Assembly: GCA_913009895.1 (NCBI GenBank)
Contig: CAJVXY010000007.1
Coordinates: 22,901-86,900, forward strand
Source of the DNA: an uncultured Acidiferrobacteraceae bacterium
GTDB lineage: Bacteria; Pseudomonadota; Gammaproteobacteria; Acidiferrobacterales; SZUA-150
Direction: 5' to 3'
DNA length: 64,000 bases
The notes beneath the pieces were generated by a model. It saw only the letters and a program-made list of their open reading frames with translations, was not told the origin of the DNA and searched no databases. Shown piece by piece: positions 36,448 to 52,457 of the stretch. The stretch's first letter is position 1. The number at the start of each line of letters is the position of its first letter. The position numbers were made by a program, and so were the translations under genes.

Positions 36448-37902
36448 TTATTGCAATAACCCATCCATGCCTATGGCCGCCAGGCGATTGCGGGCAGTGC
36501 CGCCAATAGTGGTGAAGGCCCCGCCGGCATAGACCGTGCTGCCGTCAATGGCCAGGACCCAAACTGCATTATTGGCATCGGGATTCCAGGCGGTGCTCAA
36601 CACGCCATCCGTTCCTATGGCCGCCAGGCGACTGCGGGCAGTACCGCCAATAGCGTTGAAGAACCCGCCGGCATAGACCGTGCTGCCGTCAATGGCCAGG
36701 GCCGAAACCCTACTATTGGCATTGGGATTCCAGGCGGTGCTTAACACGCCATCGGTACCTATGGCCGCTAACCGATTGCGGACAGTGCCGCCAATAGTGG
36801 TGAAGTCCCCCCCGGCATAGACCGTGCTGCCGTCAATGGCCAGGGCAAAAACCTCATTATTGGCATTGGGATTCCAGGCGGTGCTCAACACGCCATCCGT
36901 TCCTATGGCCGCCAGATTATTGCGGGCAGTGCCGCCAATAGCGGTGAAGGCCCCCCCGGCATAGACCGTGCTGCCGTCAATGGCCAGGGCCGAAACCGTA
37001 CTATTGGCATCGGGATTCCAAACGGTGCTCAACACGCCATCGGTACCTATGGCCGCTAACCGATTGCGGACAGTGCCGCCAATCGTGGTGAATGCCCCGC
37101 CGGCATAGACCGTGCTGCCGTCAATGGCCAGGGCCCAAACCCCATCATTGGCATCGGGATTCCAGGTGGTGCTTAACACGCCATCGGCGCCTATGGCCGC
37201 CAGATTATTGCGGACAGTGCCGCCAATAGTGGTGAAGTCCCCCCCGGCATAGACCGTGCTGCCGTCAATGGCCAGGGCCCAAACCGCATTATTGGCATCG
37301 GGATTCCAGGCGGTGCTTAACACGCCATCCGTGCCGATGGCCGCTAACCGATTGCGGACAGTGCCGCCAATAGCGGTGAAGAGCCCGCTGGCATAGACCG
37401 TGCTGCCGTCAATGGCCAGGGCCCAAACCGCATTATTGGCATTGGGATTCCAGGCGCCCAGGGTGCCATCGGCCTGAATGTGGGCCAGCCGATTGCGGGT
37501 TTGGCCAGCCACGATGGTAAAATTGCCACCGATATACCAGCCGCCATTGCCATCGGCAACGGTGGCACGGATGGCGTCATTGACCTCGGGAAAACCGGTG
37601 GCGGTGATGCCGGTGGTCGCATCCAGGGACGCCCCCCGGCCGGTCACATAATGGACGCTGGTGAAACTGCCGCCAATATATGTGGTGCCAGCGCCGTCCC
37701 GGGCGATAGCATTCACGGTTCCATTGGTGCCAATGCGTAGGGCCGAGGGCAGGACGAGTCCGCCACCGCCACCACCATCACCGCCACTACTGCCACCACC
37801 ACCGCAGGCAGCCAGAATAAAGATGAAAAAGAAGAGAAACCAGGCCTGACAGCGCCGGCGGCCTGGGCTTGTAGCATCGAGACAGGTGCGTATGAACATC
37901 AT
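36448..37902 (-). CDS. Beta-propeller-like repeat lipoprotein (seven 48-aa repeats)
   Basis: MMFIRTCLDATSPGRRRCQAWFLFFFIFILAACGGGGSSGGDGGGGGG, then 7x WNPDANNAVWALAIDGSTVYAGGDFTTIGGTVRNRLAAIGTDGVLSTA; track start 38019 is an extension. Confidence 0.82.
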   Translation of the reverse strand: MMFIRTCLDATSPGRRRCQAWFLFFFIFILAACGGGGSSGGDGGGGGGLVLPSALRIGTNGTVNAIARDGAGTTYIGGSFTSVHYVTGRGASLDATTGITATGFPEVNDAIRATVADGNGGWYIGGNFTIVAGQTRNRLAHIQADGTLGAWNPNANNAVWALAIDGSTVYASGLFTAIGGTVRNRLAAIGTDGVLSTAWNPDANNAVWALAIDGSTVYAGGDFTTIGGTVRNNLAAIGADGVLSTTWNPDANDGVWALAIDGSTVYAGGAFTTIGGTVRNRLAAIGTDGVLSTVWNPDANSTVSALAIDGSTVYAGGAFTAIGGTARNNLAAIGTDGVLSTAWNPNANNEVFALAIDGSTVYAGGDFTTIGGTVRNRLAAIGTDGVLSTAWNPNANSRVSALAIDGSTVYAGGFFNAIGGTARSRLAAIGTDGVLSTAWNPDANNAVWVLAIDGSTVYAGGAFTTIGGTARNRLAAIGMDGLLQ

Positions 37903-38016
37903 TTCATAATCCTTCGCGGGATAAATGGGGTTAGTCGTATTTGCAAAGACAAAGACTAGGAAATGATTGAGGTTATTGCAATAGAGCGCTGGTGAAATCA
38001 GGTGAATTACACCGCA

Positions 38017-38044
38017 CATTTTATTTCATCCAGTCTACGTTTAC
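38017..38044. repeat. 28-bp direct repeat flanking the repeat lipoprotein gene (right)
   Basis: CATTTTATTTCATCCAGTCTACGTTTAC. Confidence 0.9.
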
Positions 38045-50816: not shown

Positions 50817-50892
50817 GGGGCGTTAGCTCAGTTGGTAGAGCACCGGACTTTTAATCCGATGGTCGCAGGTTCGATTCCTGCACGCCCCACCA
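50817..50892 (+). tRNA. tRNA-Lys (anticodon UUU)
   Basis: GGGGCGTTAGCTCAGTTGGTAGAGCACCGGACTTTTAATCCGATGGTCGCAGGTTCGATTCCTGCACGCCCCACCA; acceptor GGGGCGT/ACGCCCC, CTTTTAA loop, encoded CCA. Confidence 0.97.
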
Positions 50893-50931: not shown

Positions 50932-50989
50932 CTTGCCTGTTACCTAAGAATCAATCAGGGTGTATTATATTCATTGTGGGTTTTGAGCC

Positions 50990-51154
50990 TAATGGCGCTG
51001 ACTTAAGCCTAATATCAGGTTTAAACATGGTTCCCCGTAGGTTGGACTGAGGAACGAAGTCCAACAGTGGCGCTTTATTTAACACTTGTGTTGGACTTCG
51101 TTCCTCAGTCCAACCTACAAAAAAAGACTTATTGGGCTTAAGTCAGCGCCATTA
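50990..51154. mobile_element. MITE-like element, 165 bp, 24-bp TIRs (23/24), 11-bp TSD
   Basis: TSD GGTTTTGAGCC at 50979-50989 and 51155-51165; TIR TAATGGCGCTGACTTAAGCCTAAT (50990-51013) vs ATTGGGCTTAAGTCAGCGCCATTA (51131-51154); nested 29-bp perfect inverted repeat 51037-51065/51090-51118. Confidence 0.92.
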
Positions 51155-51443
51155 GGTTTTGAGCCGGGTTTCGAGCTCTAGTCAGAGAGGGTAACCATCG
51201 CAGCGTCGGGTTCAGAAAACAGCAGGGCTGGATTGCCAGTGGTTTTAATCGAGTCTGGAATACTTCCATTTTCCCTTTTATTAGCAGAGCAAGAAAAGAA
51301 TTCTATGTCTGTGTTTTTACTGGAATTACGGCAAAGTTTTAAAAATCCCCGGATCCGTCAGCCAGGGACAAGAAATATTTTTAGTCTTTCGCGCCCAAAT
51401 TTGATATAAATTTACAAGTCATTAACAACAAAGAAGAAAACAG

Positions 51444-52457
51444 ATGTCAATTACAGCCAGAGAGATCCAGGAAAAATTTGGCGGAGAACTTATAGGTGAT
51501 CGCGATGTAAGTTTGTCCGGTGTTAATAACCTGGAAAATGTTAAAGAGGGCGAGATTACTTTTGCGGAGAAGAGTAAATACCAGGAGCAAGTAGCGGCAT
51601 CAGCTGCGGGGCTGGTTATCGTTACAGAAGACTTCCCGGAAACAAAAAACAAAAATTTATTAAAAGTAAAGAAACCGAAAGTGGTTTTTGCCCAGATTAT
51701 GCACTTGTATCAGGAAGACGATGGCCCCGTGAACGGCATACACCCAACGGCTGTAATCGATTCTGATGCCGAGGTCGCCAATAATGTCGCCATTGCTGAA
51801 TATGTCGTAATACGCGCGGGTGCAAAAGTAGGCAAGGGGTGCCGTATTGATTCCGGCTGTCATATTGGCGTCAATGTAACCCTGGGTGAGGATTGCTGGA
51901 TTGGGTCGAATGTAACCTTGCAGGCCAGGTGTACAATTGGTGACCGTGTCATTATTCATGCTGGCACTGTCGTTGGTGCTGATGGTTTTGGTTATGCCTG
52001 GGACGGGGAGAGGCACAACAAGATTCCACAGCTTGGTAGTGTTGTGGTTGAAGATGACGTAGAAATGGGCAGCAATGTTTGTATCGACCGGGCAACGTTT
52101 GGCCTCACCCGTATTGGCCGTGGCACCAAGCTCGATAACCTGGTGCAGATTGCCCATAACGTGGATATGGGCGAACACATAGCTGTGTCAGCACAATCTG
52201 GCGTAGCGGGCAGTGCGACTATCAAAAATGGCGTGTTTGTGGGTGGTAACGTTGCAATATCCGATCACGTTACTGTCGGTGAAGGTGCCATGATTGGCGG
52301 TGCTTCGGGAGTGGCGCAAGATGTGGAAGCCGGTGATTTCGTCTGGGGTACACCTGCCCATAACATAAAAAAGGTAATGAAAGAACAAGCTTGTGTTAGC
52401 AAGCTGCCCGGGATGATGAAAGATTTACGTTCTTTGATAAAAAAGAATAAAGAATAA
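51444..52457 (+). CDS. lpxD: UDP-3-O-acylglucosamine N-acyltransferase (LpxD-like)
   Basis: HPTAVIDSDAEVANNVAIAEYVVIRAGAKVGKGCRIDSGCHIG hexapeptide repeats; GADGFGYAWDGERHNKIPQLGSVVVEDDVEMGSNVCIDRATFG. Confidence 0.92.
   Translation: MSITAREIQEKFGGELIGDRDVSLSGVNNLENVKEGEITFAEKSKYQEQVAASAAGLVIVTEDFPETKNKNLLKVKKPKVVFAQIMHLYQEDDGPVNGIHPTAVIDSDAEVANNVAIAEYVVIRAGAKVGKGCRIDSGCHIGVNVTLGEDCWIGSNVTLQARCTIGDRVIIHAGTVVGADGFGYAWDGERHNKIPQLGSVVVEDDVEMGSNVCIDRATFGLTRIGRGTKLDNLVQIAHNVDMGEHIAVSAQSGVAGSATIKNGVFVGGNVAISDHVTVGEGAMIGGASGVAQDVEAGDFVWGTPAHNIKKVMKEQACVSKLPGMMKDLRSLIKKNKE

Follow-up and report, generated by a model that had tools for sequence, protein, structure and literature searches.

Structure and setting of the 165-bp element

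The window analyzed here is a stretch of 64,000 nucleotides from the genome of an uncultured Acidiferrobacteraceae bacterium. Between the genes for tRNA-Lys(TTT) and lpxD, we found a 165-bp element flanked on both sides by the 11-bp sequence GGTTTTGAGCC (Table 1). The tRNA gene ends 97 bp upstream of the element, and the lpxD start lies 278 bp downstream of the right duplication. A sequence-only reading of the window had described a MITE-like element with terminal inverted repeats (TIRs), an 11-bp duplication and an inner perfect 29-bp repeat, and all of these features were confirmed, coordinates included. When the flanking CC/GG is counted in, the TIRs form a 27-nt inverted pair with 96% complementarity, and the inner arms, of 29 bp each, are 100% complementary with a 24-nt loop between them. 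DNA folding of the element gave a z of -14.2, with 0 of 200 dinucleotide shuffles as good, and 0.00 chance occurrences of the inner-arm pattern are expected per window; together with the control searches described below, these values exclude a chance origin of the palindromes. An Rfam search returned the tRNA as its sole match and none for the element.

Table 1. Coordinates of the element, its parts and its neighbors in the window.
Feature	Position	Strand	Basis or remark
tRNA-Lys(TTT)	50817..50892	+	neighbor, context only
Left target-site duplication GGTTTTGAGCC	50979..50989	+	11-bp register common to most genomic copies
Whole element	50990..51154		165 bp
Left TIR TAATGGCGCTGACTTAAGCCTAAT	50990..51013	+	about 20 bp match IS4-family IS ends
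Left spacer ATCAGGTTTAAACATGGTTCCCC	51014..51036	+	common to all copies; without homology to ISs
REP arm 1, GTAG + imperfect palindrome (GTAGGTTGGACTGAGGAACGAAGTCCAAC)	51037..51065	+	inner-arm matches
REPIN loop	51066..51089	.	orientation A in the window copy; the opposite orientation in 21 others
REP arm 2, perfect inverted copy of arm 1	51090..51118	-	inner-arm matches
Right spacer	51119..51130	+	comparison of copies
Right TIR ATTGGGCTTAAGTCAGCGCCATTA	51131..51154	+	TIR matches
Right target-site duplication GGTTTTGAGCC	51155..51165	+	11-bp register of genomic copies
lpxD	51444..52457	+	neighbor, context only; PF04613, 63 bits

The element is short and non-coding, has TIRs and a target duplication and is present in multiple copies, as is typical of a MITE. 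Its interior shows a GTAG tag, an imperfect palindrome in the 20-40-bp range and an inverted, hairpin-forming doublet, which are the hallmarks of GTAG REPs and REPINs. The REP-like repeat that had been suspected inside another repeat is a GTAG-type REP doublet (REPIN). Elsewhere in the window, a 523-aa ORF (36448-38019, minus strand) contains about seven near-identical 144-bp (48-aa) tandem repeats with 88% matches (...NNAVWALAIDGSTVYAGGDFTTIGGTVRNRLAAIGTDGVLSTAWNPDA...); it carries LAAC followed by a glycine-rich linker and perhaps encodes a beta-propeller-like surface lipoprotein.

Copies in the host genome

The host assembly (G000) comprises 2.85 Mb in 73 contigs and is 90.5% complete. The TIR pattern matched 43 times in this genome compared with 0 for the reversed control, and the inner 29-bp arm matched 75 times compared with 0 for its control. 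Further genomic copies had been anticipated, and BLASTN of the assembly revealed approximately 39, namely about 35 with two REPs, most of them 161-167 bp between the AATGG ends, and four with one REP, of 113 bp. Because the one-REP forms show both possible centers (GAGGAACGA and TCGTCCCTC), they look like deletions that presumably occurred between short direct repeats created by the two palindromes. One additional host shell (C21:52198, 121 bp) contains other cargo, a CGTC-type REP.

As 74 of the 75 REP arms sit within shells keeping at least one TIR, shell and REPIN were amplified as a single unit; the sole arm outside a shell belongs to a free REPIN with a differing loop (C19:1610-1696). No REPIN-free shell of this family was found among the host copies, all of which hold the REPIN or its one-REP deletion form. 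Since nearly all copies hold the REPIN at the same place, it is not a later independent insertion in the window copy. The nesting put forward in the sequence-only reading therefore stands as the origin of the element and falls as a separate event at this site, and the adjacency to tRNA-Lys is correct as a position but carries no special role, as this site is one of approximately 39. In viral contigs, the exact inner arm gave no match and the TIR search gave one.

Two copies had unusual ends. In L028 (G000:C39:5136), the right TIR breaks off early, and the sequence that follows it, GTCTGTCCCTGTT, is but for one G the left flank AACAGGGGACAGAC in reverse complement, possibly as the product of a template switch or of aberrant transposition. 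In L006 (G000:C5:26592), two extra partial ends are present at one end (CCATTAGGGTCTGCCATTAGGGTCAGTGCCATTAGGGTCAGAGAA), the outermost of which is bracketed by the duplication GGGTCAGAGAA, as would result from a second copying of the end along with target sequence.

Target duplications and comparison with a genus-mate

In the 11-bp register placed one base outside AATGG..CCATT, the flanks of 34 copies had a mean identity of 0.78, compared with a mean of 0.41 and a maximum of 0.50 in 2000 permutations of the flanks. Perfect 11-bp duplications were present in 8 of the 34 copies, and several low-scoring copies suit a 10-bp register instead. The target consensus is palindromic, approximately GGNCWGACCC, with an A-rich left arm and a T-rich right arm. 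This GG...CC-type target resembles that of IS231, GGG(N)5CCC.

The genus-mate G001 is syntenic with the host and roughly 80-88% identical to it, and a search of G001 with the shell gave no match. The element is absent at seven syntenic loci (L010, L012, L018, L027, L029, L094 and L097); we do not claim these as exact empty sites, since intergenic divergence blurs the junctions. The orthologous tRNA-Lys/lpxD spacer (L220; G001:C5, ~64.8-67.1 kb) lacks the outer arms, as expected if they had arrived by insertion in the host. The empty site with a single GGTTTTGAGCC that had been proposed for this locus was not found in clean form, as the G001 spacer carries an unrelated insertion of ~2.3 kb; because of this other DNA, the spacer seems to be insertion-prone. 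Within the G001 insertion lie an ORF of nucleotidyltransferase-like sequence and what may be a toxin-antitoxin pair.

Four host copies (L023, L024, L025 and L028) were inserted in a GGGACAGACCACG-type repeat (GGGGACAGACCACG-type), which is thus a recurrent target of the MITE, and an unoccupied relative of this repeat is located at G001 locus L113, beside a free REPIN. Free REPINs of the window type were found in the host's own C19 and in G001, G054 and G108. A G001 free REPIN near the locus orthologous to L029 was considered as a candidate for the site of capture, but the alignment there is too blurred by intergenic divergence to be informative. The simplest reading of these data is that a REPIN already present was enclosed once and that the resulting unit then multiplied in a burst confined to this lineage.

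Complete ISs with the same ends

An exact search of other genomes with the TIR pattern found 68 stretches, some of which are the ends of complete ISs in Paraburkholderia (1525 and 1530 bp) and Rhodoferax (1527 bp). A protein search revealed complete same-TIR ISs in G017, G020, G022, G040, G046 (same order) and G094 (same class), and the copy in G017 shares the GACTTAAG variant with the window element. These ISs are 1503-1548 bp long, end in (N)AATGGCACTTACTTAAGCC and make duplications of about 10-12 bp. The three transposases scanned (458-474 aa) matched the NF033592 IS4 family with 219-224 bits (cut-off 115); the IS4-family transposases also matched PF01609, and the Y(2)R(3)E(6)K motif was intact (YARRWNVELDLRNIK in L125/L181 and YARRWNVELDLRNLK in L142).

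De Palmenaer et al. 2008 (PMC2266710) described the IS4 subgroup as having ends of -AATR--------WTW---- with a relaxed first base, autonomous forms of 1400-1650 bp, duplications of 10-13 bp and a YREK transposase. The same-TIR ISs fit this description in end consensus, length, duplication length and YREK motif, whereas the window element is only 165 bp long, non-coding and REPIN-carrying. The IS231 subgroup was rejected, as it needs CAT ends and the ends found here are (N)AATGG. The IS4 group had been offered as a guess, which proved well founded, as the ends match those of ~1.5-kb IS4-family (IS4 subgroup) ISs in relatives and other Proteobacteria. The homology between MITE and ISs stops after ~20 bp at each end.

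These ends and the target duplications also support the earlier proposal that a TIR-bounded element was moved in trans. No relative of the IS4-group transposase was found at E<=1e-20 in the host assembly, which is incomplete, and none of the same type was found in G001, so that the mobilizing enzyme of the host lineage is one that we infer. The parent transposase may have been lost from this lineage or left unassembled; a MITE usually shares its genome with an autonomous partner, although this is not a requirement. The sole DDE_Tnp_1 gene of the host (C8:2323) was rejected as the parent, as its ends (GAGGCTGTAGAAAAAG) are unrelated to the TIRs.

Shells with other cargo

We surveyed 22 short same-TIR elements from the host and other genomes, including the window element. 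A GTAG- or CGTC-type REP motif was present in 16 of the 22. In 13, the length of the inner inverted repeat exceeded that found in 95% of control windows of matching length from the same locus. These counts rest on elements gathered with a single TIR pattern, on a loose motif test and on controls drawn without regard to whether the DNA was intergenic. The Sedimenticola genome had 146 TIR matches and 86 CGTC-REP matches. Among its copies were a shell family of 140-141 bp enclosing a CGTC REPIN, forms of 84-90 bp reduced to one REP by deletion, and a distinct shell whose cargo is a GTAG REPIN. In particular, inserts of ~42 bp and ~60 bp were present inside one REP arm in Sedimenticola (L284-L299; AGGAGTGGTGCAGGGATGCACCG...), the ~42-bp insert occupying one arm in some copies and the opposite arm in others, and one copy had an unrelated loop. 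Additionally, a Sulfuricaulis MAG had shells with a GTAGGGCGGGTTA REPIN. That shells of a single kind enclose different palindromes in unrelated bacteria points to cargo exchange or to enclosure on repeated occasions.

Conservation of the arms and orientation of the loop

The REP stems deviated from the consensus at 5 of 1024 positions, compared with 184 of 2784 in the shell, spacers and loop, which is ~13-fold less, and a Fisher value for this comparison is only indicative as the sites are not independent. Three copies had an identical substitution in both arms. The loop was in orientation A in 11 copies, including the window copy, and in orientation B in 21. On a tree built solely from the outer parts, seven changes of orientation are required, and the orientations cluster no more than shuffled labels do. 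A single clade for orientation A was rejected by the AU test (p = 0.003), as it was with only the 23 duplication-verified copies (p = 0.013). The loop was thus probably flipped more than once, although the tree, with 81 columns and weak support, does not settle the count. The Sedimenticola copies showed no inverted loops.

Template switching between the arms of an inverted repeat is known to homogenize the arms and to invert the spacer, and proteobacterial short inverted repeats were reported to be more conserved than the sequence around them (PMC8604942). Of the mechanisms considered, such switching fits best as the explanation of both arm identity and loop flips. Selection or biased correction is also likely to contribute, because unbiased correction alone would not lower divergence.

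Selection for an RNA or DNA element (a terminator, an mRNA stabilizer or a protein-binding site) might instead of template switching have conserved the arms, a proposal that covers arm conservation only and may act alongside our preferred explanation. It agrees with the low variability of the stems, with the location of the element downstream of a tRNA, with the need for bias or selection if arm divergence is to be lowered and with the REPINs of Bertels and Rainey (PMC3116915), in which REPs are likewise more conserved than loops. However, selection alone predicts neither the same substitution in both arms nor repeated loop inversion, and we consider it somewhat unlikely as a replacement for template switching.

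An ORF on contig C8 of G000 (L107 76-696) contains FFLMIRRPPRSTLFPYTTLFRS, which we take to be a typical Illumina adapter sequence left in the assembly. This stretch suggests a short-read assembly, and several contigs (C67, C55, C3 and C45) end in or near copies of the element. Loop orientation and arm identity were read from an assembly that resembles a short-read MAG, in which both signals could be inflated by graph or read-correction effects on high-copy repeats of 29 bp. That the inversions and the near-perfect arms are altogether artefacts of metagenome assembly is less probable still than selection acting in place of template switching. The 23 duplication-matched copies still reject a single A clade, the closely related L008 (A) and L023 (B) are each flanked by perfect duplications, and the loop orientation lies at most ~120 bp from unique flanking sequence, presumably within one 150-base read. 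With ~35 parallel copies of one long palindrome, arm correction and loop inversion become traceable.

Origin and spread of the element

Taken together, the unit at 50990-51154 is, with high probability, a non-autonomous miniature transposon of the IS4 family (IS4 subgroup) that encloses a GTAG-type REPIN, was mobilized in trans and carried its passenger to ~39 loci. Under this model, the ~20 bp of IS end per side would be all that the element shares with its parent IS. A DDE transposase of the IS4 type, supplied in trans, would cut at the TIRs and paste the whole unit, and insertion into palindromic GGNCWGACCC-like targets would duplicate 11 bp. The REPIN would have been enclosed once in the host lineage and then carried as a passenger, and template switching between the perfect arms during replication would keep the arms alike and flip the loop. 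A short DNA parasite on a borrowed transposase would thereby have spread an enclosed palindrome to ~39 places in the host genome.

It is very improbable that the dispersed outer palindrome was instead a target into which a RAYT-moved REPIN was inserted copy by copy (Di Nocera et al. 2013, PMC3733652). RAYTs classically act on GTAG REPs (PMC3733652), the host genome has six Y1_Tnp (RAYT-type) genes, two IS200-like Y1_Tnp genes flank copy C5:26592 (L108, G000:C5:24730-27551), and the exchanged loops and extra arm inserts of the Sedimenticola copies would suit such insertion. Against this, empty shells are missing among the ~39 copies, the target duplications sit outside the TIRs, and loop and spacers are similarly diverged (5-8%) and therefore share one history. 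Moreover, the six Y1_Tnp genes lack flanking GTAG hairpins apart from the MITE copy at C5:26592, whereas a RAYT gene between cognate REPs is a common, if not universal, companion of GTAG REPs. We rejected this copy as a special case, as a chance neighbor is plausible with six genes and ~39 copies. That the element is an ordinary internally deleted IS with an IS remnant as its interior is hardly credible, even though its ends match ISs exactly and a 558-bp derivative in Lamprocystis (L153) retains a transposase-like fragment, since the homology ends ~20 bp in and a REPIN makes up the interior, which refutes this origin of the interior unless an unseen parent IS contains this REPIN.

The mode of spread of REP sequences has long been in question. 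CGTC REPs have been reported without a dedicated transposase, and GTAG REPs have been ascribed to RAYTs (PMC3733652). The CGTC REPINs in IS4-type shells of Sedimenticola and others, together with the GTAG REPIN described here, provide a concrete and testable route of spread, and the shells suggest such a route for repeats with no known transposase of their own. We tentatively raise the possibility that IS4-group ends are a general and recurrent means of REP dispersal, CGTC REPs included, in which the shell stays constant and the cargo is replaced, and that the palindrome favors transposition, for example by drawing the two ends close to each other.

Comparison with known systems

ERIC, with a 127-bp conserved imperfect palindrome as its consensus, differs from the window element in length and architecture and was set apart by description. 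The inner part of the element resembles the REPINs and GTAG REPs described previously (Bertels and Rainey 2011, PMC3116915; PMC3733652), as it consists of two REPs in inverted orientation, each with a GTAG tag, around a variable loop and folds into a hairpin; for REPINs, too, the loop was reported to be less conserved than the arms (PMC3116915). In contrast, the classical REPIN is a free unit beside a RAYT gene, whereas the REPIN in the window is the cargo of a DDE-transposon shell. REP dimers within long palindromes were reported from Anabaena variabilis and Halothiobacillus neapolitanus, where empty palindromes were not found (PMC3733652). These are similar to the window element in that a REP pair is centered in a longer palindrome, but their sequences are different, and the palindromes were left unexplained in that report; by analogy, a MITE shell is a natural candidate explanation for them.

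In the open-access PMC literature, the closest precedent is QMITE2 of Coxiella burnetii, a MITE containing a GTAG REP (Wachter et al. 2018, PMC5896051). According to the portions of that report consulted, QMITE2 is 150-190 bp long with 17-29-bp TIRs and 7-13-bp duplications, mostly of 7-9 bp, and it resembles the present element in holding a GTAG REP, in having small REP-only versions and in occurring in dozens of copies. The same portions give neither a parent IS nor a shared target motif, and the likeness is one of description. Beyond QMITE2, the element described here adds a parent family with complete ISs, a target motif, the boundaries between IS-derived and captured DNA, and the recurrence of the shell with other cargo.
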